Below, piece by piece: positions 746 to 44,597 of a DNA stretch of 44,597 nucleotides. A program made the translations under genes and the position numbers. The DNA is from an uncultured Eubacteriales bacterium (lineage in GTDB: Bacteria > Bacillota > Clostridia > Christensenellales > Aristaeellaceae): positions 1-44,597 of the forward strand of contig CADBVG010000021.1 of assembly GCA_902798105.1 (NCBI GenBank), read 5' to 3'. Positions within the stretch are counted from its first letter, which is position 1; each line of letters opens with the position of its first letter. A model generated the notes under the pieces. That model did not search any database. It saw nothing but the letters and a program-made list of their open reading frames with translations, and was not told the origin of the DNA.

Positions 746-1043
746 CTGGAAAAATACCCTAACAGTGAAGCGGTATATACCATAGATAGCCAACTTATGG
801 AGAATATCAATACCCCAATAGTGTAGTAATGCGGCGCTGGGCAATGCACGTTGTCACGAAAAAGTCATAAAGAATAATATCGACAAGGGCGTTGGTTTTT
901 CCTGCGCCCTTTTTACGTTTGCCATCGGGAGGATGGGAAACGTTATTGCGTTTTGGCTTGCGTGGGAAAACGTGCACTCCGATCGGATTATAGGCTGTCA
1001 ACAGGAAATTCAATAAACCAAGGGTAACTGTTCAATCGGTGGG
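746..1043. other. Intergenic stretch with no supported gene
   Basis: AT-richer than its surroundings. A 68-codon minus-strand frame at 807-1013 is open, but its translation matches no family I recognise and it lacks a clear ribosome site. The segment lies between the broken pilin 5' end and the 410-bp repeat element, so it may be the junction left by an older rearrangement. Confidence 0.4.
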
Positions 1044-1453: not shown

Positions 1454-1556
1454 ACCCAACTGAATAGATGCAACTAAGGAACGATTCAGTCCCGGATGTG
1501 GCGGCAGCTTCTATGGCGGCCCAGGGGCCGCCGCTACAGGCGGCGTACATTGTAGC

Positions 1557-1690: not shown

Positions 1691-1911
1691 AGCTATATTA
1701 TAATATTAATTGAAGAGAATGTCAACGATAAAATGGGGCGATAACAGGGTACATCATTTCTAAAGTGGACGACATTGCCTTCCAGCGGAGGCCAGAGGCG
1801 CGAACGTGTGGCCCTGCCGCGGGCAGGGTCGGAGGGATTCCACAGTTGACACTGGGCTGTAACAATCGCAGCATGGGGAAGAGGCGCAAGCCGTACAGAA
1901 AGGAGAGTCCA

Positions 1912-3420
1912 ATGCCAAATACAGCGGATCAGCCATCCAATAGCCAAGGGGAGAACAGGGGACCCAGGGCCATCACGATCAAGGCAATTCCAAAGGAGAC
2001 GCCAAAGAAGCGCGTGGCGTGCTACTGTCGGGTCTCTACCCAGATGGAATCCCAGGAGGACAGCATCATTGCCCAGAAGACCCACTTCATTCGACTGGCA
2101 GGGGAGAATTCCGGCGTATCCCTTGTCGGTATCTACTACGAGGAAGGGATCAGCGGAACGGAATCATCCAATCGGCCGGAATTCCAGCGGATGATGTGGG
2201 ATTGCCGCGCTGGGAAGATCGACGAGATTTGGGTGAAGAGCATTTCGCGCTGGGCCCGCAATACAATCCAGCTGCTGAACAGCCTGCGGGAGCTCAAGAC
2301 CCTGGGCGTCAACGTCGTTTTCGAGAAGGAGCGGCTGGAAACGGCAGGCGGTAATGCCGAGTTGATGCTGGCCCTGATCGGCAGCTTTGCCGAGTTTGAA
2401 TCGAAATCGATCCGGTTGAATACCAAGATGGGATACAGGACCCGGATGCAGGCGGGAGTATTCTTCTACAACCGACCGCCATACGGATACGATGCCAACA
2501 GAAACGGTGAATTGGTGGTGAATGCTGAAGAAGCGCCCATCGTCAGGCGCATTTTCCAAATGTGCATGGACGGCATCGGGTCCGTCCGGATTGCCAACGC
2601 GCTGCAGGCCGAGGCCATTCCAACGAAGCGCGGGGCTGTATGGCAGCCGGGAACGATCCGGGCGATTCTTTCAAACATTACCTATACGGGAGACGTCCTC
2701 CTCCAGAAGACGATCAGGGCAGGGAATGGGCCGAGGAAAAAGAATGACGGATCTGAAGACCAATACCTCGTGACAAACCATCACGCTGCAATCATCGATC
2801 ACGCCATCTTTGACGCCGCGCAGGTTGCCTTGCGCAGCCGCGCCCGCGGCCGCGCGGCGGGAGACGGGAAAAGCGGCAACCGGTATGCGTTTTCCCGGAA
2901 ACTGATCTGCGCGCACTGTGGGCACCACCTTCATCGATTCCAGGGGAAGGCGGAAACCCAGTGGATCTGTACCGGGCACAGGGCCAGGGGGTGCCCTATG
3001 AAGCCTGTTTCTGAAATGGAGGTGAAGAACAGGTTCAGGGGAATTGTGGCGGATATCGACCGCCGATTGCCGATTCACAGCGAAGGAATGGATGATGACG
3101 GACCGGCCCTGCGGCTGCAGGCCAATCTATCCCAGCAGGACGCGCTGCGTTCGCTTCAAGCGGCGCTGTCCCCTTCCGAGTACGCACATCGCCTGAATGC
3201 CCTTGAACGGGAAGCGGACGCGCTTCGCGGGCAGATGGCCGGAATTGCCAACCACATTGCCGATAAACTGAAAAGGGCCTGCCGCCAGGTCCCGGCAAAC
3301 GCAAATTGGATTCAGGTGGAACCCATTTTCACGGAACAGGTGGAGAGCGTAACAATCTGGTTCGGCGGCAAGATGGCATTCAGGTTTAAGTGCGGCATTA
3401 CTATCGTTTCACAAAAATGA
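1912..3420 (+). CDS. Large serine recombinase 1
   Basis: A 502-residue large serine recombinase (resolvase/invertase superfamily) that cuts and rejoins DNA at att-type sites through a serine-DNA link. The N-terminal catalytic domain begins RVACYCRVST with nucleophile Ser42; ISGTESSNRPEF and SRWARN are family hallmarks. A recombinase domain follows (GYRTRMQAG to about residue 290), then a zinc ribbon starting at Cys333 (CAHCGHH, CTGHRARGC) and a helical C-terminus. The frame is open from 1765, but ATG 1912 has AAAGGAG a few bases upstream and starts near the usual distance before the catalytic domain. It is followed after 23 nt by a second recombinase with the same ribosome-site layout, so they are likely co-transcribed. 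Tandem pairs of this size recall ccrA/ccrB and clostridial integrative elements. No matching att sites or cargo are visible. Confidence 0.93.
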   Translation: MPNTADQPSNSQGENRGPRAITIKAIPKETPKKRVACYCRVSTQMESQEDSIIAQKTHFIRLAGENSGVSLVGIYYEEGISGTESSNRPEFQRMMWDCRAGKIDEIWVKSISRWARNTIQLLNSLRELKTLGVNVVFEKERLETAGGNAELMLALIGSFAEFESKSIRLNTKMGYRTRMQAGVFFYNRPPYGYDANRNGELVVNAEEAPIVRRIFQMCMDGIGSVRIANALQAEAIPTKRGAVWQPGTIRAILSNITYTGDVLLQKTIRAGNGPRKKNDGSEDQYLVTNHHAAIIDHAIFDAAQVALRSRARGRAAGDGKSGNRYAFSRKLICAHCGHHLHRFQGKAETQWICTGHRARGCPMKPVSEMEVKNRFRGIVADIDRRLPIHSEGMDDDGPALRLQANLSQQDALRSLQAALSPSEYAHRLNALEREADALRGQMAGIANHIADKLKRACRQVPANANWIQVEPIFTEQVESVTIWFGGKMAFRFKCGITIVSQK

Positions 3421-3443
3421 GCACACGCGAAAGGAGAATCACA

Positions 3444-4985
3444 ATGCCCGTTCAGGTTATCAAGAGACAGGCCATAGCACCTAAGGCGGTGGAGAGGGAA
3501 ATACAGCGAACCTGCTGCTATATCAGGGTTTCAACGAACCATGAGGAGCAGGAGGACAGCTTCGAGGCGCAGCGGAACCATTATGAAACGCTGATTCATG
3601 CGAATCCTTCCATGTCCTACGCAGGCACATATGCCGATGAGGGCGTCAGCGGTACGGGGACAGAGCACCGCGAGGGCTTCAAGCAAATGCTGGCGGACGC
3701 GGAAAAGCACATGTTTGATCAGATCCTGACGAAGTCCATAAGCCGCTTTGGACGGAATACCGTCGATACGCTCCAGGCGGTGAGGCGGCTGAAGGATCTG
3801 GGCATCGGGGTTCGCTTCGAGAAGGAAGGCGTGTGGACGCTGGATGGCACGGGCGAGCTGCTGCTGGTCATACTCAGTTCTTTGGCGCAGCAGGAGTCCC
3901 AATCCATCTCCGAGAACGTGAAGATGGGCATACGGTATCGCTTCCAGGAGGGGAAGCACTTTGTGAATTGCAGCCGCTTCCTGGGCTACGACAAGGTGGA
4001 CGGGCGGCTGGTCATCAATCCCGAAGAGGCGGCCACGGTCCGCCGCATCTATGCGCTCTTCCTCAACGGCTACAGCGTGGATATGATCGCCAGCCAGCTG
4101 ACGCGCGAGGGCATCCCCACCGGGGCAGGCAAGACCACGTGGTATCCCACGACCGTCCGCTATATCCTGTCGAACGAGAAATACGCCGGGGATTTGAGGC
4201 TGCAAAAAACTGTAGTTCCCAACTTTTTGACGCATCGCAGCAAGCGCAACACGGGGGAGGCGGATCAATACTACGTGGAGAACAGCCACGATCCGATCGT
4301 TCCCAGGGATGTCTTTGACATGGCGCAGGCCGAGGCGTCCAGAAGATCGGCATTTCGCTTTTCGGAGGACGGCAGGATCACGGGGATAAAGTACGGAAGC
4401 CGAAAGGCGCTTTCCGGTCGCTGCAGATGTGGGTGCGGGGCGCTCCTGTACCGGGAGCGAAGCAATACGGGAAGGTGGGTATGCAAGCAGTGCGGCCTGT
4501 CCATCGGCGAAGCAGAGCTGCAATCGGCCGTGATGGATTCCTTCCGGAAGCTCCGGCTGGAAAAGGAGCATTTGAGAAGCCTGCTCGCTGCTGCAGAGCA
4601 AGTATTGGCAGAAACGGAGCCAACCGCCCCGGCTGCAATACAAAAGAAGGGGGAGGATATGGGAGAACGGGCCAAGGCGCTCTTCCGGCGATTTCATATC
4701 ATGGCTGCGCTGGATTGGGTCGAAAACGTCGGGAAGGAGAACACGGCTGACACCTGCCGCACCCTTGAACGGTTTATTGAGATGACGCGGCCGGCGGCGT
4801 TGACCAAATGGGACGACGACACGATTCTGAAATTCGTTGAAGGCGTTGCGCTGGTCGATGGGAAGGTTGCGGTCAGGTTTAAGGCAGGGGTTACCGTGAT
4901 GGTGGAGGTTGCGGAGGACAGGTCCCAGGCGAAGCTCTGTGGCGCGTTTCGACATACCGCCGGGATTGCGCAAAAATTGTCATGA
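3444..4985 (+). CDS. Large serine recombinase 2
   Basis: A 513-residue relative of the upstream gene with the same domain order: catalytic domain with CYIRVST and nucleophile Ser30, VSGTGTEHREGF and SRFGRN motifs, recombinase domain, then a zinc ribbon beginning CRCGC at Cys327 and closing with CKQC. A helical region (about 355-420) follows. An ATG at 3390 overlaps the first recombinase, but ATG 3444 has AAAGGAG directly upstream and is preferred. The two recombinases are clearly diverged, so they are not a recent duplication and may recognise different half-sites, as proposed for paired recombinases. Its TGA overlaps an ATG (ATGA at 4982-4985) that opens a short frame, hinting at a lost third gene. 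Confidence 0.93.
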   Translation: MPVQVIKRQAIAPKAVEREIQRTCCYIRVSTNHEEQEDSFEAQRNHYETLIHANPSMSYAGTYADEGVSGTGTEHREGFKQMLADAEKHMFDQILTKSISRFGRNTVDTLQAVRRLKDLGIGVRFEKEGVWTLDGTGELLLVILSSLAQQESQSISENVKMGIRYRFQEGKHFVNCSRFLGYDKVDGRLVINPEEAATVRRIYALFLNGYSVDMIASQLTREGIPTGAGKTTWYPTTVRYILSNEKYAGDLRLQKTVVPNFLTHRSKRNTGEADQYYVENSHDPIVPRDVFDMAQAEASRRSAFRFSEDGRITGIKYGSRKALSGRCRCGCGALLYRERSNTGRWVCKQCGLSIGEAELQSAVMDSFRKLRLEKEHLRSLLAAAEQVLAETEPTAPAAIQKKGEDMGERAKALFRRFHIMAALDWVENVGKENTADTCRTLERFIEMTRPAALTKWDDDTILKFVEGVALVDGKVAVRFKAGVTVMVEVAEDRSQAKLCGAFRHTAGIAQKLS

Positions 4986-6037: not shown

Positions 6038-9000
6038 ATGAATAACAATACCCTGAAATCGGTTGTCAATAAAGCCAGGCAAAGGCGGTATATCAAGCGT
6101 GGCCTCGCGCTGCTGTGCGTTTTTGTGCTTCTGTTTACAATGAATACGCTGAAGCGCAACGCCAACACGCTGGAGCGTGTGCCGATGTGCGGTTACGCCG
6201 AAGAGCACGTTCACATGCCGGAATGCTATGACGGGGACGCGCTGGTTTGTGGCAGGGCGGAGCACATCCACACCGATGCCTGCTACCAGGAAGTGCCCGG
6301 CGACGGCGACGAGATGAACGTCCAACTGGCGGACACGCCCGTGGAGGATTTGGATTCCGAGAACCTGGACGGCCTTCTTTCACTTAGCGAAGACGATTTC
6401 GCTCTGGTGACGGACGATGTGGCCCCCGCGCAACCCGTCTCCAACGCGACGGAAGCGCAGCCGAAGGCATTTATACTGGGCGAGGGCACGATGGTCAGCC
6501 GGATCATCGACGCCGTGGGCCTGGATGTTAGCCTTGCCGCGATCATCAACGTCGCCGTCGTGGATGACGCGACGATGCAGGCCGATGCGGTCGGGATTGA
6601 AAAGGACGGCGACGATTACAGGATTTTTGCCACGCGGGACTTCGATCGGGCGCAGCTGGCGCTGGTGGTCGAGGGGGATATCCTGCTGGTGGACCTGCTG
6701 GACGGCGTGGCGGTGCGGGAAACGTCTGACGCGCCCGCTGAGATCGCTGAGGAAACCGCGCCCGCCGCGCCTGTCGCGGAGGAGATCATGCCGGTGATCG
6801 AGGACAGCCCCGTCGAGGACAGCCCCGCCGGGGAAGCGATCGAAGAGCGGATCGATCTCCCCGAGCCGGCGCAGGAAGCGCAGGAAGCGACTCCCGCTGC
6901 CGAAGCGGACGAGACCGGGGATATTACCCTGACAGAGGACGCGCAGCTTGTTGAGGGTGAAATCATCGAGACCGGGGAACAGCCCGCCGAGGACGAGGCT
7001 ACCGAGACTGAAGAAGAGCCCGCCGAGGACGAGGCTGTCGAAACCGGGGAACAGTCCGCCGATGAGGAGGCTGCCGAGACCGAAGGAGAGCCCGCGGAGG
7101 ACGAGGCTGCTGAAACTGAGGAAGAGCCCGCCGAGGACGAGGCTTCCGAGAATGAGGAACAACTTGTAGAGGACGAGGTCACCGAGACCGGGGAACAGTC
7201 CGCCGAGGACGAGGCTTCCGAGAATGAGGAACAACTTGTAGAGGACGAGGTCACCGAGACCGGGGAACAGCCCGCGGAGGACGAGGCTTCCGAGACAGAG
7301 GAACAGCCTGTTGAGGGCGAAGTGTCCGAAACCGAGGAGCAAACTGCCGAGGAAGACACGCCCGAGACTGAAGAGCAACCCATCGAGGAAGAGGCTACCG
7401 AAACCGGGGAACAGCCCGTAGAGGATGAGGCTTCCGAGACCGAAGAACAGTCTGACGAAGCGAAAGCGTCTACGGAGGAAGTCGCTGATGAAGGACAGGC
7501 CATCTATACCGCGACCGTCGACCTGGCGGAGGTCACCGACTATCCGCTGTCCCTGAACGCTTTGCTGGCCGGGTTTGCGCCGGAAAATGAAGCGCAGGCC
7601 GAAGAAACCCCCGAGCCTGCGGGTGAGGACGGGACCGAAGCCAAGCCGAACGAAGCGCCCGCCGGGGCGTCGGCCCTGAGCATCGAATACGATCATGATC
7701 TGCTGGATATCGAGGCGGCTGGAGACGATTATCTCATCACGCCCGTCGCCAGCTTTGCATCCACCGCGATTGTCGTCGACAACGGCAGCCGCTGCGAGCT
7801 GACGCTGGTGAACTGCACCCTGCCGGAGGCCGAAGACGCGGTCGAAGCCGAGTCTGAGGCGCGGGTCGGGTATCCCGCCCAGAATTTCGAGGGCCACACC
7901 CGGTACGTGAAGGTGGTCGTGGCGGCGCCCGAAGGTGCGTTCCCCGAGGGCACGACCATGGCCGTCGCGGATGTGGAGGACGAAAAGACCCTGACCGACA
8001 TCGAGGATACTGTGTCCGAGGAATTCGTCGAGGTCAAGCGCGTTCACGCTGTGGACATCACGTTCAGAGACGCCGAAGGCAATGAAATCGAGCCCCTCAT
8101 GCCGATCTCCGTGGTGATGACCGTGGACGAGATCGGGCAGCGGCAGGAAGCTGTGGTGGTCCACGTGGACGACGCCGGCGCGGCCGAGGTCGTCGACAGC
8201 CAGAGCGAAGCCCCTGCGGGCGAGACCGAAGTCAAGGTCGAAATGCCCGCGACGGAGGCTCCCGAGGCAGCCCAGCCGGAGGACAGTGAGGCGGCGAGCG
8301 TGGGCTTTGATGCCGACAGCTTCTCCGTGTACGCCGTGGTCATCACCGAAACCATCGACACGAAGTACATCGACGCCGAGGGTGCGACCTGGAACATCTC
8401 CGTGGGCTACGGCCCGGAGGCCGGGATTCCCGCGGGCGCGACGCTGGCGGTGCAGGAGGTCGAGGGCGACTACCTGGAGCAGACCACCGAGCTGCTGCGC
8501 GGCAAGGAGACCATCACCCTGGCCCGGTTCTTCGACATCACCATACTGGACGCCGAGGGCAACGCGGTTCAGCCCGCCCAGCCGGTGGAGGTCAAAGCCA
8601 TCCTGGCCGAGCAGAGCGAGGACGCCGTGAAGGCGGTCCACTTCGCCGAGGACGGCCCCGAGATCATTGAGGCCAGCCAGGAGGAAGATGCCGTCAGTTT
8701 CGACGCCGCCAGCTTCTCGGTGTACGGCATCGTGTACACCGTGGATTTCCACTACACCGCCAACGGCCGAATCTTCGGCTATGGCATCCCTGGCGGCGAC
8801 TGCGCGTCCCTGCGCGCGCTGCTGCCCGCGCTGAACGTCGCCTCCGACGATCCCGAGACCGAGGCAGACGAGCTGGAGGCCTTCATGGCCGGGATTGCCG
8901 ACGTGAAGTTTACTGACTCCGAACTGGTGCGGGTGTGCCCCGTGACCGCGGAGACTACCGTGGGCGCGCTGCGAGCCGAACTGGGCCTGGAATCCCAGTA

Positions 9001-12000
9001 TTCCGCGGCCCTGACGGAAGCGGACCGCGCCGAAATCGACGCCCGCGTCCTCACCGCGCCCGACTGGGCCCTGTTCAGCCTGCTTCCCTTCACCTCCGAT
9101 GAAGCGCTGACCGTCACCATGGAAAATGGGGACAGCTTCATCATCGTCGTCACCGACGCCCAGATCGCCACCCGCGTGCTGGCCTCCGACGGCAATACAT
9201 ACAAAATCACCCTCACCTTCGGCCCCGAGGCTGAAATTCCGCTGGACGCGGAGCTGAAGGCCGTCGAGATTGAACAGGGCACCACAGAATGGTTCGATTA
9301 CCTTACCCGCGTCAACAATGTGGTAGACGACCTGGTGATGTCGGATATCGCCAATCATTTCTTCGACATCGAAATCCTCTCCAACGGTGAAAAGATTGAG
9401 CCCAAGGCCGCTGTCAGCGTCAATATCGCGCTGGAGGACGCGCTTGAGGATGAGATCGAGCTGAAGGTCGTCCACTTCGTTGAGGACGGCCCGGTTGTGA
9501 TGGAAGCACAGGTGAGCGCTGAATCGGATGAAGCGATCAACATTCAGTTTGAGACGGATGCCTTCTCGGTGTACGGCGTGATTACTGCGGACGGTACTCC
9601 TTCCGGCACGAGTGACTTGGATGGAAAGGCATTCACGATCCAGAAAGGCGATAATTACCTTTCTTCTGGTATTTTCAAGGATGCCACCCATAAATTCAAG
9701 AAGATCAGCAGCGCAACGGATGCTACGATATGGGTCTTTGAGGCGACCGGTCAGGAAAACGTGTATAACATTTTCACCATGGTGCATGGCGAAAAGAAAT
9801 ACATGGGTCTGACCCAAACTAATGATGGAAGCAATGCTGCTCATGCTACGCTGAGCAACACGGCGCAGGGCTTCAGGGTTGACAAGGTCAGCGATGGATA
9901 CAGACTGTCCGCCGAGAGCAACGGAACCCGGTATTTTATCAATGAGTTCAGCGGTTCCGGAGGAAACGGCTTTGCGGGATGGAGTACAGAAAACGACGTG
10001 AACAACACCCTCGCTCTGAACTTCGTCACTCCCCAGGGCGCCACGGGCGGAAGGGACCAGAAGTATGTCCTGATTGCCAAGTACGAGGGTGAATACTATG
10101 TCATCCTCAATGACGGCACACTGGCCAAGACAGCTGACCCGGTGGGCACAGTGATGAAGATCGACGATCCCATGGTGTGGATGTACACCGGCGACAACCT
10201 GTACCACAAGGCCAAGGAGACCGGCTTTGACGGCAACCAGCTGGCTTCCGATTACTACTACCGTTATCTGGACCCGACGGTTGCCGATGCCCTCACGGAA
10301 GAGGACATCGAGACCACCGTGGGACATCCGGGCGCCTATGCCACAGAGTATTTCATTGACTCAAGGCAATATATGTACGACATTCAGGTTGTTTACGAAA
10401 ACCATACGATCAGAAGCAAGAGCGACGGCAGCAGCTACATCGGCGTAGCGCCGACCCAGGACGGCGGCCTGAAGATCGTCGGCCAACAGGGCGTGGAGAA
10501 CGCCGGCGAGATCTACCTGGTCAAGATGATCAACGAAAGCGATATGTCGTACAGCCTGACGGACGGTGAGCTTCACCATGCCGTCAACCACATCGATATT
10601 TCCGTGGTTGGTCGTGCGGCGTTCAGCATTCCGCTGGCCTACGGCACCTATTATTACAAGGATCAGAATGGCACAGTCCAGAAGATAGTGGTCACCCGGC
10701 AGAACCCGGTATCGGTGGACATTGAACAGGAGGTGGGCATCGATCGGGAGGACGTGAAGCGCGCCAACATCACCGCCTATAAGCTGGACGAGACGGGTAA
10801 TCCCGTTCCGTTGGACGACGTGTTCCACGTATTCGGTTATTCGGGCAACGCGGAAACCGACGCCAGCACGAACCAGACCCGTATCGAGGGCATATTCAAG
10901 GTGGCGGACTTGCCGGCGATGGATCCCAACCATGACAATCACGAACAATGGGGTTTTGAATACGATGTCTGGAACGAGCAAGGGTGGCATAAGGAATGCG
11001 ATTATAATCGCCCGTCCAATAAAGTGCTCGAAGAACGGCTGAAGAACATCATTTATTATACGGTCACCACGACGAAAACGGTCGACTTCGACCTGGCCTA
11101 CAACAACTTCAAGCTGTACGACAGCTATGAGAACGCCCAAAACGGGGGAACCGAGGGCATTGCGAAGGGCAGCGCCACGGTGAAGTTCTCCAATACCTTC
11201 GACTACTACGACCCCCGCAACGAGTGCCCGCCCATCCTCTATTGGGGCAAGCGGGACTACTGGAAAAAGGGCGGCATCATCTACGCAGAGGATGAAAAGT
11301 CCGGTTCCGGCATGGACTTTGCGCTGGGCACCATCGAGAAGGACCAGTTGGGCTTGCTGGCCATCGAGATCACCAAATACGTGATTGATGAAGCCGGCAA
11401 TCCCATCACCCCGCTTCAGAACGTGGACAACCTTTTCCACGTCTACCGCAGTGCCACGGCCAATCCGGCGGATGTGACCAATCTGAATGTGGACAGCTAC
11501 AAGGGTACGGATTACGATGTCAACGGGAATTACCGCCCGGTTCATGACAAGACCGTGACCGTGGGTGACGGCGGCGTCGGCACCGTCTACGATTACGACG
11601 TGGACGCGGGCATGATCTACATCGAGGAGGACAGGAGCGAAAAGAACCTGCCCCGCACGTTGGTGGATGTGGACGGCAAGGAATGGAAGTACAAGGAGAC
11701 CCACCTTGAAACCGAATACGTGTGGCGCGACAACGGCATCGAGTACCGGCGGCACTTCAGCAAGACTTATTCTGATGGTGTAAATGAAGCTTACAACAGC
11801 ATTCCCGAGGTGTTGGGCGATTACAAGGATGTCAACGGTATTGACCGCCACAACGGCTTCCTGGAATTCTTTGTCTACAACGTCTACAAGATCGAGCCGG
11901 TGGATATTCCGGTAAAGAAGGAATGGAAGCATCAGAACGGCTCCGACGCCGTTGCGCCGGACGACGCCAGCATCACGGTGACCCTGGGTCGCTATAAGAT

Positions 12001-15000
12001 GGTGGACGACCCGGAAAACCACGTCAGCGGCAGGCTGGAGATCAACCACAGTGTGAACGGTAGGGAGTCCGACGGCAGCTATTATGCCGGTTATACCATC
12101 AAGCAGGGGAATCGGGTCATTCGCTCTGGCTCCTATGACCCCTCGAATTCCGTTCTGACCATGGATGATGTGCCCGCGGGCGATTATACCCTGGTTCTCT
12201 CGGAGAGCATGAAGGGCTATTCAGCCAGCACCACGATGGACGGCGAGGCGAGGACGAGCATGCCGATCAGCATTGTGGCGAATCAGACGACCCATGTTCC
12301 CATCAATACGACGCTGACGCACGTAGAACCGCAGTCGATGGTCACCCTCACGGTGACCAACAGGGAGGAGTACAACGAGGAATTAAACCATAACAAGACC
12401 TATACCTTCCCGGCGGGAAAGACGGTGGTCATTACCATCAGCCGACCGTCCAGGGTTTACAACGGCAGCGGATTTTGGGCGAAATACAGTGTTAATAATG
12501 GAAATGAGCAGGATTTCCCCTGGCCCACGGAGGGCGACGACCATAGCTATACCTATGTGGACCAGCATTGGGAATATACGCTGCCGACGACCGCGAACCC
12601 CAATACAACGATTGCGTTCCGGCACAACTGGAACCAGAGGGACTTCTTCATCAAGGCCGTGACGCTGAAGGGGGAATCCGGCGATGCGGGTTCCGGAACC
12701 AACGCCGGGCAAAACGCTGTCAGCAATTCCGGGAACCGGGCCATGATGTCGTCCCCACGCCATGCTTCGGCCAATTCGCTTCAGTCGGTGGCCAGCATGG
12801 GCAATGCGCCGTCTTCAAATGTGCCCGGTATGAAATATGTGGACGACGAAACATTCCTGACCCCGGATGATGAGCCCTACCGCGTGACGCTTTCCAACGG
12901 GGTTTGGGAGGATGTCTTTACTGGCCTGCCGGGTGCGGACGAACACGGCTACAAGTACCTTTACTACATCAAGGCCGTGGACGAGAAGAATGTTCCCGAG
13001 GGTACGCAGGTTGTGATTGCGACGGTGGACGGCAAGACGCAGACGTCCAACGGCGAAACCACGCTGAAGGTCACCAACACCATCCCCAATGAAAAGCCTA
13101 AGGTCACGCTCAGGAAGGTAGACGAGAACGGCCAGCCCCTGCAGGGCGCCAAGTTCCAGTGGAGCTTGAACAGTGGAACCCCCACCTCTGTGACCATCGA
13201 TTCTCCTGACGCGACGTATCTGTTGGACGGCCCGGATGGGAAGGGCCTGGAGGACGGAACGTATACCATTAGCGAGATAAAAGCGCCGGATGGCTACCAG
13301 ACGATCAGTGGCAATTTCGCCTTTGAGGTTCGCGATAAGGCGATTATGGTAACAGGCAATTTGCCGCAAGAAGTGACCTTCGATGGTGAAACCTATACCT
13401 TCAACATCAAGAACAAGCCGGTTGAAAACGGTAAGCTGACAATCGTCAAGCGCTGGCAGGACTTCTATGGCAACAATATGGACTATACGGGAGATCCGAT
13501 CAAGCTGAAGCTGGTCCAGCTTGCGCGCACGCCGAAACCGCAGCACATCATTAGGGTACGGTTCTACTATAAGGGCGACGGCAAAGGCGGGAACAATAAA
13601 CCTTCAGACTATGAGAATAAGTGGACTGAGGTTGCAACAAAGGCCGGTAGAGGCTGGGGAAGCGCGAGCCTGACATGGAAGTGGGCAGGTACCACTCAGT
13701 GCGGTCTCGGTAGCATCACTTATTCTGGTATGGAAGGGATAAGAGTTGAGTGTATTTCTGAATCGGATAAGCAGTATCGGTTAAATATTCCCAATACAGC
13801 GGATGATGTGACGATTACTATAAAGGTTGACAATGGCAACTGGAATCCGTTTGACAATCAACCGCAGATAGATGAATATATACAGTTTAGTAACAGCTAT
13901 GATATGGACGAAGGCTATTCGCCTACGGGAGGGACCAAAGAGATAACGCTGGGTGAAAACGGCGTTTGGACGATGGAGCTTGCATTTGACGATGAAGGCA
14001 AATTTTTGACCGATGATCGTACAACCTTGTCGAAATCCATTGATAGCAGGCCCTGCGTATACGCCATCGTGGAGGAGGAACTGCCTGCCGGCTTTACGGT
14101 TTCCTACTCAGACAGCAACGAGCCGGGCATGGGGGCTGGCGACAATGGTGTGTTGACGGCCTACAACCGCAAGCGGACGGCTGACGTCAAGCTGATCAAG
14201 GTCGATAAGACCAACCGCGAGATCAAGCTGAAAGACGCGGAGTTTACGCTCTATCCTTTGGACGCTTCCCAACCGGGCGCTGTCCGGGCGAATGAAACAG
14301 GCATTGTTCAGACCACGGACAGTGAAGGCGTGGCGAATTTCAACAACCTCACTGTGGGCTACTATGAGATTCGGGAGACGGAGGTTCCGATCGGTTATAC
14401 CGTCAAGGAAGAAAACGCGGCCTTCTATATCAAAGTGACGACAGAGGGCGTTTTCACTGTACAGAAGGATGACCAGAAATACCCGACGAGCTGGAAGATT
14501 CGCCCTAATGACAGCATGGTTACTACCAACGAAGCGGGCGTGATCATCGTCGGCAATGAACCCAAGACCTATCCGGTCTATATCAAAAAGGTGGATTCAA
14601 CCAACCCCAGCAGAACGCTGGCGGGCGCTGAGTTTGACCTGTATGGGCCGTATAACTCGCAGCGCAATCTGGACAACGACGACAGAAGCAATGGGCGCAA
14701 ACAGAAGAAGGTCAATGAAGCATCCATAGTTGTCGGCGACAATGGCATTGGCGCGCTGGGTGAGTTGGTATCTGATTATTACTATCTCTATGAGACGAAA
14801 GCGCCAGACGGTTTTAACACGCTGGTGGAGCCTGTGCTGATAACTGTCAATGCCAGCCATGAGACGGCGCAAGGTGGAGCTGTCACCTACAACCAAAGTG
14901 GAAACACGAGTTCCAGCAGCGGAACCGGCGTGGCTTACGATGCGGAGAACAAGACCTACACCCTGACAATCACCAACAATCCCGGCGTCTCTCTTCCCAA

Positions 15001-15100
15001 CACCGGCGGAAGCGGTACGACCCCGTATTATGTCTTCGGTTCCCTGCTGGCGCTGGTCGCGGTGGCGATGCTGGTCGCCAGGCGGCGCGGACGCGCCTGA
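6038..15100 (+). CDS. Giant LPNTG-anchored surface protein with CnaB/SpaA-like modules
   Basis: A 3020-residue secreted protein covalently anchored to the wall. In order: a positively charged N-terminus and hydrophobic export segment (about 20-36); two Cys/His motifs, CGYAEEHVHMPECY and CGRAEHIHTDACY (about 50-85); an acidic 12-residue tandem repeat (313-468); three related domains ending in F-x-A/T-x-(S/A)-FSVY (about 610-765, 775-900, 1048-1182); a possible beta-trefoil-like segment (about 1197-1330); several Cna-B/SpaA-like domains, clear at KVTLRKVDENGQ (2354), KLTIVKRW (2465), VKLIKVDKTN (2717) and VYIKKVDSTNP (2847), with E-x-x-x-P-x-G-Y strand motifs; and LPNTG at 2986-2990, then a hydrophobic stretch and RRRGRA. 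The ribosome site GGAAGAGG precedes ATG 6038. A role in adhesion or matrix binding is inferred. No sortase gene is in the window. The acidic repeat is likely length-variable. Confidence 0.95.
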   Translation: MNNNTLKSVVNKARQRRYIKRGLALLCVFVLLFTMNTLKRNANTLERVPMCGYAEEHVHMPECYDGDALVCGRAEHIHTDACYQEVPGDGDEMNVQLADTPVEDLDSENLDGLLSLSEDDFALVTDDVAPAQPVSNATEAQPKAFILGEGTMVSRIIDAVGLDVSLAAIINVAVVDDATMQADAVGIEKDGDDYRIFATRDFDRAQLALVVEGDILLVDLLDGVAVRETSDAPAEIAEETAPAAPVAEEIMPVIEDSPVEDSPAGEAIEERIDLPEPAQEAQEATPAAEADETGDITLTEDAQLVEGEIIETGEQPAEDEATETEEEPAEDEAVETGEQSADEEAAETEGEPAEDEAAETEEEPAEDEASENEEQLVEDEVTETGEQSAEDEASENEEQLVEDEVTETGEQPAEDEASETEEQPVEGEVSETEEQTAEEDTPETEEQPIEEEATETGEQPVEDEASETEEQSDEAKASTEEVADEGQAIYTATVDLAEVTDYPLSLNALLAGFAPENEAQAEETPEPAGEDGTEAKPNEAPAGASALSIEYDHDLLDIEAAGDDYLITPVASFASTAIVVDNGSRCELTLVNCTLPEAEDAVEAESEARVGYPAQNFEGHTRYVKVVVAAPEGAFPEGTTMAVADVEDEKTLTDIEDTVSEEFVEVKRVHAVDITFRDAEGNEIEPLMPISVVMTVDEIGQRQEAVVVHVDDAGAAEVVDSQSEAPAGETEVKVEMPATEAPEAAQPEDSEAASVGFDADSFSVYAVVITETIDTKYIDAEGATWNISVGYGPEAGIPAGATLAVQEVEGDYLEQTTELLRGKETITLARFFDITILDAEGNAVQPAQPVEVKAILAEQSEDAVKAVHFAEDGPEIIEASQEEDAVSFDAASFSVYGIVYTVDFHYTANGRIFGYGIPGGDCASLRALLPALNVASDDPETEADELEAFMAGIADVKFTDSELVRVCPVTAETTVGALRAELGLESQYSAALTEADRAEIDARVLTAPDWALFSLLPFTSDEALTVTMENGDSFIIVVTDAQIATRVLASDGNTYKITLTFGPEAEIPLDAELKAVEIEQGTTEWFDYLTRVNNVVDDLVMSDIANHFFDIEILSNGEKIEPKAAVSVNIALEDALEDEIELKVVHFVEDGPVVMEAQVSAESDEAINIQFETDAFSVYGVITADGTPSGTSDLDGKAFTIQKGDNYLSSGIFKDATHKFKKISSATDATIWVFEATGQENVYNIFTMVHGEKKYMGLTQTNDGSNAAHATLSNTAQGFRVDKVSDGYRLSAESNGTRYFINEFSGSGGNGFAGWSTENDVNNTLALNFVTPQGATGGRDQKYVLIAKYEGEYYVILNDGTLAKTADPVGTVMKIDDPMVWMYTGDNLYHKAKETGFDGNQLASDYYYRYLDPTVADALTEEDIETTVGHPGAYATEYFIDSRQYMYDIQVVYENHTIRSKSDGSSYIGVAPTQDGGLKIVGQQGVENAGEIYLVKMINESDMSYSLTDGELHHAVNHIDISVVGRAAFSIPLAYGTYYYKDQNGTVQKIVVTRQNPVSVDIEQEVGIDREDVKRANITAYKLDETGNPVPLDDVFHVFGYSGNAETDASTNQTRIEGIFKVADLPAMDPNHDNHEQWGFEYDVWNEQGWHKECDYNRPSNKVLEERLKNIIYYTVTTTKTVDFDLAYNNFKLYDSYENAQNGGTEGIAKGSATVKFSNTFDYYDPRNECPPILYWGKRDYWKKGGIIYAEDEKSGSGMDFALGTIEKDQLGLLAIEITKYVIDEAGNPITPLQNVDNLFHVYRSATANPADVTNLNVDSYKGTDYDVNGNYRPVHDKTVTVGDGGVGTVYDYDVDAGMIYIEEDRSEKNLPRTLVDVDGKEWKYKETHLETEYVWRDNGIEYRRHFSKTYSDGVNEAYNSIPEVLGDYKDVNGIDRHNGFLEFFVYNVYKIEPVDIPVKKEWKHQNGSDAVAPDDASITVTLGRYKMVDDPENHVSGRLEINHSVNGRESDGSYYAGYTIKQGNRVIRSGSYDPSNSVLTMDDVPAGDYTLVLSESMKGYSASTTMDGEARTSMPISIVANQTTHVPINTTLTHVEPQSMVTLTVTNREEYNEELNHNKTYTFPAGKTVVITISRPSRVYNGSGFWAKYSVNNGNEQDFPWPTEGDDHSYTYVDQHWEYTLPTTANPNTTIAFRHNWNQRDFFIKAVTLKGESGDAGSGTNAGQNAVSNSGNRAMMSSPRHASANSLQSVASMGNAPSSNVPGMKYVDDETFLTPDDEPYRVTLSNGVWEDVFTGLPGADEHGYKYLYYIKAVDEKNVPEGTQVVIATVDGKTQTSNGETTLKVTNTIPNEKPKVTLRKVDENGQPLQGAKFQWSLNSGTPTSVTIDSPDATYLLDGPDGKGLEDGTYTISEIKAPDGYQTISGNFAFEVRDKAIMVTGNLPQEVTFDGETYTFNIKNKPVENGKLTIVKRWQDFYGNNMDYTGDPIKLKLVQLARTPKPQHIIRVRFYYKGDGKGGNNKPSDYENKWTEVATKAGRGWGSASLTWKWAGTTQCGLGSITYSGMEGIRVECISESDKQYRLNIPNTADDVTITIKVDNGNWNPFDNQPQIDEYIQFSNSYDMDEGYSPTGGTKEITLGENGVWTMELAFDDEGKFLTDDRTTLSKSIDSRPCVYAIVEEELPAGFTVSYSDSNEPGMGAGDNGVLTAYNRKRTADVKLIKVDKTNREIKLKDAEFTLYPLDASQPGAVRANETGIVQTTDSEGVANFNNLTVGYYEIRETEVPIGYTVKEENAAFYIKVTTEGVFTVQKDDQKYPTSWKIRPNDSMVTTNEAGVIIVGNEPKTYPVYIKKVDSTNPSRTLAGAEFDLYGPYNSQRNLDNDDRSNGRKQKKVNEASIVVGDNGIGALGELVSDYYYLYETKAPDGFNTLVEPVLITVNASHETAQGGAVTYNQSGNTSSSSGTGVAYDAENKTYTLTITNNPGVSLPNTGGSGTTPYYVFGSLLALVAVAMLVARRRGRA
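6974..7441 (+). repeat. 36-bp tandem repeat, 13 units, inside the surface protein gene
   Basis: Thirteen 12-residue units of the type (G/E)EQPAEDEASET follow each other, plus a degraded fourteenth. Two consecutive units are duplicated almost base for base: the stretch from 7142 recurs 72 bp later from 7214. That points to recent slippage or unequal crossing over, with length multiples of 36 bp keeping the frame. Confidence 0.9.
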
Positions 15101-21648: not shown

Positions 21649-21854
21649 AAATTCAGATTTGTCGCTGGGGCGACAAATCTGAATTGAGTGATTAGTGGCT
21701 AGTGGCTAGTGACTAGTGGTGGTACAAATCCCTACGGGATTTGTTTGATTCAAGGGAAACGGCAGAAGTTCCAACGCCTTCATTCACTAGCCACTGATCA
21801 CTAGCCACTAGCCACTCAAATTCTGATTTGTCGCTCCCCGACAAATCAGAATTT
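21649..21854. repeat. 206-bp double-hairpin element of the AAATTCTGATTTGTCG family
   Basis: Hairpin 1: AATTCAGATTTGTCGC (21650-21665), loop TGGG, GCGACAAATCTGAATT (21670-21685). Hairpin 2: AAATTCTGATTTGTCG (21818-21833), loop CTCCC, CGACAAATCAGAATTT (21839-21854). Between them are inverted arms of tandem AGTGGCT units (about 21686-21720 and 21782-21816) and an inner hairpin CAAATCCC-tac-GGGATTTG (21725-21743). Hairpin 1 carries a T-to-A change in one arm matched by A-to-T in the other. Confidence 0.85.
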
Positions 21855-24075: not shown

Positions 24076-24289
24076 ATATGGCGGGGGAACTGCTTCCCCC
24101 GCCATTACCTCCAGGGCCGGTAGGCCCATGGACGGCGCGAGCAAGGCGGCCAACCATCGGTTTGCCGGTTTCGCCTGAAAGGCGAAACCGTCGGCGTTGG
24201 CAATCGTAGATTGTCCAACGCGGCACCGTTAGCGAGGCGGAAGGGTCAGTCCGATAAATCAGAATATACTCAACCAACCGAGGTATATC
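24076..24289. other. Intergenic hairpins and a lone repeat half-site
   Basis: GGCGGGGGAA-ctgc-TTCCCCCGCC (24080-24103), directly after yqhQ, is a probable terminator or 3' stabiliser without a U-run. GGTTTCGCCT-gaa-AGGCGAAACC (24167-24189) follows. CGATAAATCAGAAT (24252-24265) is a single arm of the dispersed hairpin family, with no matching left arm nearby. No gene is supported here and no good promoter for the next gene was found. Confidence 0.6.
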
Positions 24290-26323
24290 ATGCTTAAATT
24301 TCTGAAGCGCCCCTCGGGAGCGCGGGAAATCAAAACTGAAGCCGGCAGCGTGAGATCCAGGGTGATCTTCCTGCCGGTGCTTGCTTTGGCGTTGACGCTG
24401 GTGCTGGAGCTGTGCAACCGGGGGCTATCGGTCGCCCGGCTGTTCCAGTTCATCACCCAGCGCCCCGGCTATTTCCTGTACAACGTGCTGATCGTGCTGA
24501 CCACGCTGGTGTTCTCCGAGCTGTTCCACCGGCGGCGGGCGGTGCTGGCCACCACGGCCATACTGTGGATCGTGCTGGGCATTGTGCAGTACATCGTCAT
24601 CAAGGACCGCACCCAGCCCTTCTGCTCGGTGGATATCCTGATGATCAAGGATGCCTTCTCGCTGATCACCATCTATTACACCTGGCCCCAGATTATACTG
24701 ATGTTTGCCACCGGCTTCGGGGCGATACTGCTGGTAATCGCCCTGTTCAGCCGTATGAAACGCCGCACCCACTACAACCTGCCGATGTCGCTGGCGGTCT
24801 TCGTGGGCTTTGTGTTGCTGACGGCCATGGTGGCGGCGCTGGGCCTGCGGTCGGGCGCCTTCCCGCGTCACTTCGACAGCCTGGTGGACGCCTACAACGA
24901 CTACGGCTTCGCCACCTGCTTTGTGTTCACCTTCGGCCAGCAGGGTATTTCCCGCCCGCAGGCCTATTCCTCTGACACCGTGACCGGCATATTGGACGAG
25001 ATCGCCGAGGAGGACACCACCGAGCTGGTGTATCCCGTTTTTGACGAGGACGACAACCTGGCCCACCCGAACATCGTGTTCGTGCAGCTGGAATCCTTCT
25101 TCGACGTGGGCACCATCAAGGGCGGCAGGTATTCCGCCGATCCCACGCCCTGGTTCAACCGCCTGTGCGACCGCTTCCCCAGCGGGCTGCTATACGTGCC
25201 CACCATCGGCGGCGGCACGGCCAACACCGAGTTTGAGGTGATCTCAGGCCTTGACTTGGATTTCTTCGGGGCGGGGGAATACCCATACAATACGATCCTG
25301 CAAAACACCACCTGCGAGACGATGTGCTACAACCTGAAGGACTACGGCTACGCCGCTACGGCCATGCACAACAACCGGGCCACCTTCTACAGCCGCAACG
25401 CCGTCTATCCAAACCTGGGCTTTGACCGGTTTGTGTCGCTGGAGTATATGAAGGACGTGAAGTACACCCCGGTGGGCTGGGCAAAGGACGCATGCCTGAC
25501 CGAGGAGATCCTGACGGCGCTGGATACCACCGAGGCCCGCGACCTGGTGTTCTGCATTGCGGTGGAGACTCACGGCAAGTACGCGGAGACCTATGAGCCC
25601 AAGCCCGGGGACATCGAGGTGCAGGCCCTGCCGGAGCAGATCCCGCTGGCGCCCTTCCAGAACTTTGTCAACGCCCTGCCGGGCACGGACCGCTTCCTGC
25701 GGGAACTGACGCTGGCATTGCTGCGCTTCGACGAGCCTACCATCGTGGTGGCCTACGGCGATCACCTGCCCGCCCTGGAGCTGGAGAACGACATGCTCAC
25801 CACCGGTAGCGTCTATGCCAGCCGCTATGTGATTTGGAACAACTTCGGCGGTAAGTTCGATGCTCCGGACCTGGAGGCATACCGCCTGAACGCCAACCTG
25901 CTCAAGCAGCTGGGATTCTCCGGCGGCGTGGTGACGAAGCTGCACCAGTCCGCCGACCCCGGCGACACCGGGGAGGAGTACCTTTCCAAGCTGGAGCTGC
26001 TGGAGTACGACATGCTCTACGGCGACCGCCAGGCCTTTGAGGGCGAATTCCCCTATCAGCGCACCGACATGCGCATGGGCAGCCGGACCATCGCCATCAA
26101 CGATGCCATTCGGGAGTACCATCGGCTGCTGGTGACCGGCGAAAACTTCACAGAATTCAGCAAAATTATCGCCGGCGACCAGGCTCTGGATACTGTATTC
26201 GTCGATTCCGGGCACATTGTCGCCCCGGTCGAGGACAACGTTGAGTTTGATTCGTTCTGCGTGGCCCAGGCGGACCGCGACGGCGTGGAGCTCAGCAGGA
26301 CGGGGGAGTATGGTAAATTCTGA
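24290..26323 (+). CDS. LTA-synthase-like sulfatase membrane protein
   Basis: A 677-residue polytopic enzyme of the LtaS superfamily, which moves phosphoglycerol groups onto envelope polymers outside the membrane. Five hydrophobic segments fill about 25-190. The extracellular sulfatase-fold domain starts near 265 with HPNIVFVQLESFFD; GGGTANTEFEVI holds the nucleophile Thr310; METHGKY-like VETHGKYAE and VAYGDHLPAL carry further metal ligands. A C-terminal tail of about 140 residues follows the core. GAGGT precedes the ATG. The last codons are GGT AAA TTC TGA: the final two sense codons and the stop lie inside a hairpin repeat, so the native C-terminus may have been altered. Exact substrate (LTA or another glycan) is unknown. 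Confidence 0.88.
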   Translation: MLKFLKRPSGAREIKTEAGSVRSRVIFLPVLALALTLVLELCNRGLSVARLFQFITQRPGYFLYNVLIVLTTLVFSELFHRRRAVLATTAILWIVLGIVQYIVIKDRTQPFCSVDILMIKDAFSLITIYYTWPQIILMFATGFGAILLVIALFSRMKRRTHYNLPMSLAVFVGFVLLTAMVAALGLRSGAFPRHFDSLVDAYNDYGFATCFVFTFGQQGISRPQAYSSDTVTGILDEIAEEDTTELVYPVFDEDDNLAHPNIVFVQLESFFDVGTIKGGRYSADPTPWFNRLCDRFPSGLLYVPTIGGGTANTEFEVISGLDLDFFGAGEYPYNTILQNTTCETMCYNLKDYGYAATAMHNNRATFYSRNAVYPNLGFDRFVSLEYMKDVKYTPVGWAKDACLTEEILTALDTTEARDLVFCIAVETHGKYAETYEPKPGDIEVQALPEQIPLAPFQNFVNALPGTDRFLRELTLALLRFDEPTIVVAYGDHLPALELENDMLTTGSVYASRYVIWNNFGGKFDAPDLEAYRLNANLLKQLGFSGGVVTKLHQSADPGDTGEEYLSKLELLEYDMLYGDRQAFEGEFPYQRTDMRMGSRTIAINDAIREYHRLLVTGENFTEFSKIIAGDQALDTVFVDSGHIVAPVEDNVEFDSFCVAQADRDGVELSRTGEYGKF

Positions 26324-26351
26324 TTTGTCGCAGGGCGACAAATCAGAATTT
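26315..26351. repeat. Dispersed hairpin repeat overlapping the gene end
   Basis: A 17-bp perfect stem AAATTCTGATTTGTCGC (26315-26331), loop AGG, right arm 26335-26351. It contains the TGA stop (26321-26323) of the LTA-synthase-like gene. Confidence 0.9.
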
Positions 26352-33810: not shown

Positions 33811-33853
33811 AAACTTCTGATTTGTCGAGCCCTGCCCGACAAATCAGAATTTT
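33811..33853. repeat. Dispersed hairpin repeat between SDR and ABC operon
   Basis: Left arm with TTCTGATTTGTCG (33815-33827), loop AGCCCTGCC, right arm CGACAAATCAGAATTTT (33837-33853); one mismatch near the base. It lies in a divergent promoter region, so it is not placed as a terminator for either gene. Confidence 0.85.
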
Positions 33854-43119: not shown

Positions 43120-44502
43120 ATGAATCATGAATTTGACGTTGCGGTGCTCGGCGGCGGGCCGGGCGGCTACGAATGCGCCATACGCTGCGCCCAACTGGGG
43201 CTGAAGACGGCCCTGGTGGAGGCCCGGGAGTTGGGCGGTACCTGTCTGAACCGGGGCTGCATTCCCACCAAGGCGCTGCTGCACGGCGCGGAGATTTACG
43301 ATTATGCCAAGAACGGCGGCGACTATGGCCTGATCACCGACGGGCTGACCCTGAACTACCCCCGTCTGGCGGCCTACAAGGACGAGAAGGTGAAGAAGCT
43401 GGTCGCGGGCATCGAGACGCTGGAGAAGGCCCACGGCGTCGAGGTCATTCGCGGCTTCGGTCGGCTGACCGGCCCCAACGCCATGGATGTGGCGGGCCGC
43501 GGCATCACCTACGACAAGCTGATCCTGGCTATGGGCAGCGCCCCGTCGAAGCCCCCGGTGCCTGGCATGGAGACGGCCCACACCAGCGACGATGTGCTGT
43601 CGGCCACCAACCTGCCCAGCGCGGCCATCATCATCGGCGGCGGCGTGATCGGCATCGAGTTTGCCACGCTGTTCGCGTCCCTGCGCAAGAAGGTGACCAT
43701 CATCGAGATGATGCCGGACATCCTGCCGGGCTGCATCCCGGAGATCACCGGCAAGCTGAAGGCCCTGCTGAAGAAGAAGGGTGTGGAGTTCATACTGGGG
43801 GCGAAGGTGGTTGAGGTGGTGAAGGGCCGCGCCGTGCGCTTCGAGAAGGACGGCGTGACCGACGAGCGCCAGTCCGCCACGGTGATCGTCTGCGCGGGCC
43901 GCAAGCCGATGACCCGGGATTGCGGGCTGGAGGCCATCGGCCTGGAGACGGACCGCCGGGGATTTATAGAGGTGGACGATCACCTGCGCACCGCCTTGAA
44001 GGACGTCTACGCCATCGGCGATATCACCGGCAAGATCCAGCTGGCCCACGTGGCCTCTGCCCAGGGCATGGTGGCCGCGGCGAACTGTGCCGGTCAGGAC
44101 AGGACCATGCGCTATGACCGGGTGCCGTCCTGCATCTACACCTCGCCGGAGATCGCCTGGGTAGGCATGACCGAGGAGAGCGCGAAGGCCGCGGGCCACG
44201 AGGTGGTCATCGGCAGCTTCAATGTGGCCGCAAACGGCCGCAGCATGGTGATGAACGAGCCCACCGGCCTGATCCGGCTGATCTCCGACAAGGCCGACGG
44301 CAAGGTGCTGGGCTGCCAGATGATGGCGCCCCGGGCCACGGACATGATCGCCGAGCTCGCCGCCGTGCTGGAGATGGGCGGCACCGTCGAGCAGCTGGCG
44401 AACGTCATCCATCCCCACCCCACGGTTTCCGAGATCATCAAGGAGGCCGCCCACGACGCCGAAGGCCTGTGCGTAAACGCCATGCCGAGGGGGAAATCCT
44501 GA
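43120..44502 (+). CDS. lpdA: Dihydrolipoamide dehydrogenase
   Basis: A 460-residue FAD disulfide oxidoreductase that reoxidises dihydrolipoamide with NAD in 2-oxoacid dehydrogenase or glycine cleavage complexes. FAD motif VAVLGGGPGGYECA; redox pair GGTCLNRGC (Cys42, Cys47); NAD motif IIIGGGVIGIEFA; second FAD motif YAIGDITG; catalytic base region HPHPTVSE. No lipoyl domain is fused. AAGGAGG precedes the ATG. Partner complex genes are not in the window. The last codons AAA TCC TGA lie inside a hairpin repeat. Confidence 0.95.
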   Translation: MNHEFDVAVLGGGPGGYECAIRCAQLGLKTALVEARELGGTCLNRGCIPTKALLHGAEIYDYAKNGGDYGLITDGLTLNYPRLAAYKDEKVKKLVAGIETLEKAHGVEVIRGFGRLTGPNAMDVAGRGITYDKLILAMGSAPSKPPVPGMETAHTSDDVLSATNLPSAAIIIGGGVIGIEFATLFASLRKKVTIIEMMPDILPGCIPEITGKLKALLKKKGVEFILGAKVVEVVKGRAVRFEKDGVTDERQSATVIVCAGRKPMTRDCGLEAIGLETDRRGFIEVDDHLRTALKDVYAIGDITGKIQLAHVASAQGMVAAANCAGQDRTMRYDRVPSCIYTSPEIAWVGMTEESAKAAGHEVVIGSFNVAANGRSMVMNEPTGLIRLISDKADGKVLGCQMMAPRATDMIAELAAVLEMGGTVEQLANVIHPHPTVSEIIKEAAHDAEGLCVNAMPRGKS

Positions 44503-44597
44503 TTTATCGAGCAGGGCTCGATAAATCAGAATTGAGGGATTAGGTTTTAGGGGTTAGGTTTTAGGTGGTGGTGCAAATCCCTGCGGGATTTGTTCCA
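44494..44597. repeat. Dispersed hairpin element, running off the right edge
   Basis: Stem AATCCTGATTTATCGAGC (44495-44512), loop AGG, GCTCGATAAATCAGAATT (44516-44533), one mismatch. It then shows tandem TTAGGTTTTAGG-type units and CAAATCCC-tgc-GGGATTTG, the same order as in the 21649-21854 element. A G-to-A change in TTTGTCG is matched by C-to-T in the other arm. Confidence 0.85.

Follow-up and report, generated by a model that had tools for sequence, protein, structure and literature searches.

A layered palindromic repeat family, REP/BIME-like with a MITE-like outer shell in a minority of copies, in uncultured ruminant Clostridia

A 44,597-nucleotide stretch from an uncultured Eubacteriales bacterium (hereafter the window; contig C21 of draft genome G000) carries copies of a layered repeat family, which is REP/BIME-like in form and position, bears a MITE-like outer shell in a minority of copies, and has neither the REP tag nor a RAYT. 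We judge the chances to be about even that the family is a non-autonomous palindromic repeat made of nested shells and moving in at least two guises. Supporting this reading are the copy number with its control, duplications at the outer ends, composites with A and B ends, the contrast in paired stem changes, filled and empty sites, and a chimaeric element at L188:5365 of genome G006.

Results

Copies in the window

Five short hairpins, a half-site and a 410-bp form, all with the same ends, lie in the window; every copy that an earlier note had listed from the letters alone, including the half-site at 24252 and the 410-bp form at 1044-1453, was located. RNA folding of the five hairpins gave -19.3 to -22.5 kcal/mol (z -7.0 to -10.4). 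The core AAATTCTGATTTGTCG matched 13 times in the window at up to three mismatches, compared with 0.22 expected.

The 410-bp element, a long form with 16-bp arms and a 378-bp interior of other palindromic modules (1044-1453), is the inner part of a 448-bp unit at 1024-1471. On its left lies the outer end GTAACTGTTCAATC plus 6 bases (1024-1043, forward strand), and on its right 4 bases plus a decayed outer-end copy with 4 mismatches (1454-1471, reverse strand). The unit is bracketed on the forward strand by 8-bp direct repeats, AACCAAGG at 1016-1023 and AACTAAGG at 1472-1479, which match in 7 of 8 bases and are read as a target duplication. Two neighbouring large serine recombinase genes with Resolvase and Recombinase domains (1765-4985) adjoin this unit. 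An open reading frame of 3020 aa at 6038-15100 contains twelve repeat steps of 36 bp (6859-7494).

The composite at 21649 begins with a type A hairpin with the 6-nt loop CTGGGG (21649-21686), continues with a palindromic spacer of AGTGGCTA-type arrays and a ACAAATCCC/GGGATTTGT core (21687-21817), and ends with a type A hairpin with the 5-nt loop CTCCC (21818-21854). Its left hairpin carries a paired T-to-A change. The half-site is a right arm only, on the reverse strand at 24252-24267. A lone type A hairpin with loop CAGGG (26315-26351) supplies, through its AAATTCTGA, the stop codon of a sulfatase gene at 24290-26323. The lone hairpin at 33812-33852 has the 9-nt loop AGCCCTGCC and one uncompensated mismatch (AACTTC opposite GAATTT). 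Finally, a type B hairpin with loop AGCAGGGCT and one uncompensated inner mismatch, AAATCC opposite GAATTG (44494-44534), provides the stop codon of the gene at 43120-44502 and is followed by the start of a composite spacer, an GGGATTAGGTTTTAGG array that runs off the contig end (44535-44597).

The earlier note had seen paired, stem-preserving changes in two of these copies. The changes are real; the T-to-A in the first copy lies at stem position 7 (21655), not at 21650, and the G-to-A/C-to-T pair at 44494, although compensated, is a subfamily mark (both arms have A in 73 of 226 short hairpins) and no independent event. The claim that the stems are kept overlooked the uncompensated mismatches at 33812 and 44494. 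Nor do loops and tips vary freely, since type A loops are mostly CNNNG and type B loops mostly AGCnnn(n)GCT.

Family size and distribution

Far from being limited to these few copies, the family reaches 686 half-sites in the 3.24-Mb draft Clostridia genome G000 (at most one mismatch; reversed control, 0), and it is expanded in three congeners, G006 (595), G014 (550) and G012 (266). In G000 the core has 269 and 252 matches on the two strands at up to one mismatch (reversed pattern, 0), or 350 and 336 with either base allowed at position 13. Half-sites are few in G005 (20) and G019 (14), and each of the remaining 22 of the 28 genomes of the genus has at most 5, ten of them none; the exact hairpin is present in 4 of the 28. 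In a draw of 150 genomes from the family, no genome outside the genus had more than 3 half-sites. The named GTDB carriers are the ruminant Clostridia MAGs RGIG5665, RUG11052, RUG12424, RGIG2671, RGIG2774, RUG11941 and RGIG5014. The exact hairpin had no match in viral contigs, the composite none in plasmid sequences and the window none in Rfam at gathering score.

The sample comprised 1.21 Mb from G000, 0.63 Mb from G006 and 0.40 Mb from G014, plus small pieces from other genomes; because the stretches were partly picked for known matches, densities in them are not unbiased. Allowing each arm up to three mismatches on its own gave 271 left-right pairs in 235 elements. These comprise 155 short hairpins that stand singly, 36 composites, in which two pairs lie less than 300 bp apart, 40 long forms and 4 intermediate ones. 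Spacer-like sequence on one side of 41 of the 155 singles suggests that these are probably composites with a missed partner. The hairpins measure 37-41 bp; like tagged REPs they are palindromic, present in high copy number and extragenic.

Forms of the inner shell

The inner AAATTCTGATTTRTCG shell takes three forms: lone hairpins, composites with A and B ends, and long forms. The arms contain TTTGTCG in type A hairpins, whose loop is mostly 5-6 nt long, and TTTATCG in type B hairpins, whose loop is mostly 9-10 nt long. In a composite, an A hairpin and a B hairpin enclose a palindromic spacer made up of short arrays (AGTGGCT, AGGTTTT, AATGAGG and others). Both arm types are found in 35 of the 36 composites, the one at 21649 being the sole A-A case, and A plus B in 29 of the 30 strict ones (binomial p 6e-8 against even odds). 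Within oriented composites, three kinds of type A loop are seen in both orientations. Neither the A nor the B side of the 32 oriented composites carries a GTAG/CGTC tag.

Long forms enclose 93-494 bp of other palindromic modules. Strict A/B ends were rejected for them, with 12 A-B, 15 B-B, 4 A-A and 10 unclear cases (n=41). The flank consensus at element borders is GRY at both ends, and AACTGTTCAGTCG is found no more than 60 bp from an arm at 6 of 9 places, compared with 2 of 9 for its complement. No abutting repeats clearly above shuffles were detected at the AAATTC borders (1-10 bp in 69 elements; 2-7 bp in 201). A TA duplication there was rejected by analysis of borders and flanks, as were larger palindromic flanks as a general rule.

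Shared sites in different species

The orthologous place could be aligned in another genome for 32 of the 223 elements with both flanks. We counted by hand 13 shared sites that are occupied by at least one arm in two or more of G000, G006 and G014; 26315 and L109:11612 entered from separate comparisons, and rows E181, E192 and E209 were not counted because their alignments were poor or paralogous. At none of the 13 sites do two species have the same loop or interior.

At site 21649, G000 has the composite, G006 a lone hairpin and G014 a 251-bp interior, all from one left border, with extra sequence on the right in G014; a G012 contig holds only the left end of a long form. At site 24252, one arm and other sequence in G000 correspond to a lone hairpin in G006 and a composite in G014, and in further genomes to a diverged lone hairpin (L144 of G005) and an empty site (G018). 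Site L109:11612 has a long form in G000 and a lone hairpin in RGIG5665, and two sites have a lone A in one species and a lone B in the other (L219 versus L183). At L188:5365, G006 has a chimaeric element that joins a B half to an A half, and the G014 site has a composite. Site 33812 has a 5-nt-loop hairpin in G014; in G006 the slot of the window hairpin holds a group II intron (RF02001, 153.8 bits; L192:9100-9860). At the site of 26315, G014 has gained a small open reading frame next to a decayed arm of the hairpin (L187:10990-11480). G014 has no element at site 44494. At seven more sites one genome has no element when up to 5 mismatches are allowed, in some cases with an unaligned flank.

Both borders agree to about one base at three sites, L107:9278, L109:11612 and L188:5365, which favours one old insertion followed by change inside; at the other sites, separate insertions may account for the differences. 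Such turnover inside fixed borders is unusual. The three fillings behind one left border at 21649 and the intron in the slot of 33812 bear on a different reading, in which the palindromes serve as standing docking sites, one shell inside another, and their contents are swapped in place at fixed positions. The outer ends would hold AAATTC hairpins, long forms or other modules, the arms would close on a 3-nt tip or enclose a composite or a long interior, and an enzyme or breakage at the hairpin tip would let cassettes enter and leave at the centre. We regard this as a real but doubtful alternative to the nested, mobile shells.

An outer shell with target duplications

The 30-bp flanks of the elements showed raised direct similarity (4.98 versus 4.70, sd 0.075), which led to the outer ends and their 8-bp repeats. 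Of 234 elements, 13 have the inverted repeat GTAWCTGTTCAGTC on both sides and 23 have it on one (at most 4 mismatches), compared with 0 and 1 for the reversed word. The outer ends usually lie 4 and 6 bases outside the arms, and the bases between are RGRT. Beyond them, 9 of the 13 copies have 8-bp direct repeats that agree at 6 or more of the 8 positions, 5 of them perfectly; shuffling gave a mean of 0.8 and a maximum of 5 in 2000 rounds. The 8-bp repeat at the outer border is a target duplication, and since the 1044-1453 copy is among those duplicated, the window unit is 1024-1471. The outer unit thus has both terminal inverted repeats and a target duplication, which the inner shell and composites taken alone do not have at their AAATTC borders, and it has moved like a MITE in a minority of copies.

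Could one ordinary MITE family explain everything? An 8-bp-duplicating outer transposon would then have spread all copies, the inner shell would be no more than a section of its long inverted repeat, and copies without outer ends would be old ones with decayed or deleted borders. The duplications fit this, as do the independence of the two ends of long forms and the likeness of the GRY border consensus at all elements to the RGRT between outer end and arm. However, composites, the hairpins of which look least decayed, have no outer end in 34 of 36 cases (on one side in 2, on both in 0). Elements without either outer end show no excess of duplications, with direct repeats in 2 of 165 (0.9 expected) and, in the fixed-offset test, 5 versus 1.45, within the shuffled range. 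Moreover, at L167:8130 of G014 the outer ends and a perfect 8-bp duplication enclose a different interior. We consider a MITE family alone an improbable account, though not a negligible one.

The outer palindrome GTAACTRTTCAGTC also occurs without AAATTC arms, in contigs C51, C62, C74, C131 and C147 of G019, at L134:4719 and at L167:8130-8219 of G014. In G019 these arm-free copies are often self-closed, with the outer ends just 3 bases apart; elsewhere they surround other modules.

Paired changes in the stems

Among 226 short hairpins, 60 cells have both arms off consensus yet pairing; shuffling the right arms gave 8.2 on average and never more than 18 in 2000 rounds. The 41 long pairs have 2 such cells versus 2.0 expected. 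In short hairpins the arms differ by 0.78 within a copy versus 1.63 between copies; in long forms the values are 1.71 and 1.74. Because the arms of long forms are independent, entry of long modules at the tip of a matched hairpin is not favoured.

At stem positions 4-16 there are 41 paired cells, of 14 kinds of change, with 2.9 expected by shuffling, and 42 one-arm cells. In raw numbers mismatches are thus about as frequent as compensated pairs, the balance that the earlier note had named as telling against a kept structure, yet shuffling yields only about 3 paired cells. Its proposal that the structure itself is kept stands in that the excess is strong; it has to be narrowed to short loops, and one variant, T5A, makes up 23 of the 41 inner cells. 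Without T5A, 18 cells remain versus 0.4 expected.

The balance differs between settings. At positions 3-16, paired and one-arm cells stand at 36:15 in 112 spacer-associated hairpins and at 15:42 in 114 true solos (Fisher p 7e-6); minus T5A and A3C the contrast is weak, 8:12 versus 10:37. T5A is present in all four arms of 4 of the 4 G014 composites that carry it, a degree of sharing between the two hairpins of one composite (4) that was reached by 20 of 2000 within-genome shuffles. Arms are accordingly matched in composites, decayed in lone hairpins and independent in long forms. As in REPINs and BIMEs, the family has fixed-order pairs with a spacer, and pairs better conserved than singles, a pattern that is weak without the two variants T5A and A3C. 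We read these patterns as suggesting that matched-arm variants go on spreading and lone copies decay.

Template switching, which would also give paired changes at short loops only, remains the main rival for arm matching. On this account the paired changes are purely mutational, one arm being copied onto the other with no selection, and the family spreads by another route. The confinement of the excess to short loops is as it predicts, as are the type A loops in both orientations and the slightly raised extension of stems into composite flanks (30 versus 20.1; 46 of 1000 shuffles reach this). Arm homogenisation and loop inversion are described in PMC8794818 and PMC8604942. Equally short-looped lone hairpins nevertheless show the opposite balance, and solo flanks have no stem extension (76 versus 73.6). 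By hand count, transversions make up 45 of 51 paired cells and transitions 39 of 57 one-arm cells, which is not what mutation followed by copying predicts, although T5A by descent drives much of the transversion excess. As the full explanation of the paired changes, templating is rather unlikely.

Position at gene ends

With a simple purpose-written gene finder (1820 genes, 83% coding), none of 213 elements in the three main genomes lies inside a called gene; 114 are in tandem, 40 in convergent and 29 in divergent settings, and 30 at contig ends. No gene start lies less than 11 bp from any of the 213. The stop codon falls within or across the element end for 81 of 194 neighbouring gene 3' ends, and 100 of the 194 end no more than 15 nt from the element; none has its stop exactly abutting it. 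The 81 stops comprise 30 TGA of AAATTCTGA, 35 made of flank plus the first two bases, 13 with the first base and 3 others. The window genes ending at 26323 and 44502 stop inside hairpins in this manner. For the gene ending at 24075, the same stop codon is found in 20 distinct sequences among the matches listed, the window included, and the AA of this TAA belongs to the element in G006. Other repeat families (short arrays and other palindromes) directly follow the stop codon bordering the G006 hairpin in L150, L146 and L193, indicating that the slot takes several kinds of insertion.

Upkeep of the hairpins by the host for a gene-end function (mRNA stability, slowing of ribosomes at the stop or ending of transcription) would suit these positions, and a passage of PMC12306157, citing its reference 17, states that E. 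coli REPs within 15 nt of a stop codon lower translation, but it is very improbable given that presence, form and loop differ between close species at the same site, that 10 of the 28 genus genomes have no half-site and that no long T run follows the stem. GTAG REPs also supply stop codons, according to a passage of PMC3733652, so a position at gene ends fits tolerated insertion.

Search for the mobilising enzyme

The earlier note had proposed a hairpin-recognising mobilising enzyme, with a RAYT-like Y1 transposase carrying the same flanks as the candidate. Hairpin arms flank Y1_Tnp on both sides at 0 of 9 loci in 6 genomes, drafts in which an unassembled copy is possible, and 7 of the 9 loci carry other inverted repeats. 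The two Y1_Tnp genes of G000 are each flanked by inverted repeats of their own. The single arm near a Y1_Tnp gene (L031:2371) lies 170 bp beyond the gene's own repeat and starts a separate long form. Sixteen of the 28 genomes have Y1 genes: the four hairpin-rich ones have 2-3 each, and 12 of the 24 others have some; no relation was seen between Y1 and hairpin numbers (G017 has 9 Y1 genes and 0 half-sites, G000 2 and 686). A Y1 enzyme is therefore not supported. RAYT-like Y1 genes with their own GGGGACGGTTC / GGGGACAGGTTCC inverted repeats are found at L031 1380-2240, at L032 1108-2010 and in L267-L271; they make up a second REP system in the genus.

Y1 enzymes are not known to leave a target duplication; the 8-bp duplication at the outer border thus points to a DDE-type mover for the minority of copies that have it. 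The outer start GTAA and the 8-bp duplication resemble those of IS66-type elements, but no IS66 gene with these ends was seen. IS66 genes number none in G000 and G005, one full-length in G014, one in G012, two fragments in G019 and one weak match in G006. No outer end lies within 15 kb of the IS66 genes of G014, G012 and G019 among the matches listed. IS66 is not supported as mobiliser, given its absence from G000 and the lack of nearby outer ends where listed.

In 2.25 Mb from three genomes we found no convincing transposase-bearing copy with these ends. In G006, 59 of 72 unpaired halves lie no more than 600 bp from a locus end; such repeats interrupt the contigs, and the drafts may therefore lack an autonomous copy. 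Three arm pairs lie 6.4-6.6 kb apart at 2-3 mismatches. The frame at L250:16818-17882, between weak arms 6.4 kb apart, looks to us like an IS30-type transposase; the weakness of the arms makes chance pairing likely.

Discussion

In the nested-shell reading, the outer unit would have been moved by a DDE-type transposase. Composites would be moved by a further enzyme in a REPIN/BIME-like manner, with matched-arm variants such as T5A in G014 spreading. Since 34 of the 36 composites have neither outer end nor target duplication, we infer rather than observe that they move by themselves. Lone hairpins may be remnants, left when composites and long forms lose their middle by recombination or slippage between the arms; such collapse does not account for site 21649, which holds a composite in one species and a long form in another. 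Templating in place, with one arm copied from the other, probably contributes to the matching as well.

The likeness to REP/REPIN elements proposed in the earlier note holds for the short, intergenic palindromes, their hundreds of copies, their pairing around a spacer and the greater decay of singles; the tag and the RAYT are missing. Like the REPs, BIMEs and REPINs of E. coli and Pseudomonas, the family consists of hundreds of short intergenic palindromes near gene 3' ends with spacer-paired units. The order A-spacer-B resembles the Y and Z units of BIMEs. Paired units are better kept than single ones, as in a passage of PMC3116915, and the element supplies stop codons, as GTAG REPs do in the passage of PMC3733652. 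Unlike REPs and REPINs, the hairpins are symmetric, no GTAG/CGTC tag is present, no RAYT carries the repeats, and there are same-ended long forms and, in a minority, an outer shell with 8-bp duplications.

Like bacterial MITEs such as Correia/NEMIS and RUP, as described in PMC2229807, the family is non-autonomous, with inverted-repeat ends and variable interiors, and its outer unit duplicates 8 bp. Unlike MITEs, the inner shell and composites have no border duplication, interiors are exchanged at several levels, and no related transposase was found.

By description, the family may also be likened to the small dispersed hairpin repeats of cyanobacteria and to the neisserial dRS3 mosaics, with which it shares very small, precise and hairpin-shaped dispersed units and a mosaic arrangement.

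Our results add a large REP-like family in uncultured ruminant Clostridia, the core of which is absent from the literature searched. Being a family without a RAYT, it bears on how such palindromes spread without the usual enzyme. The nested palindromic shells, one of them with target duplications, join REP-like and MITE-like repeats in one system, and the contrast between the arms of composites, lone hairpins and long forms provides a natural test of selection for a folded substrate versus mutational arm templating.
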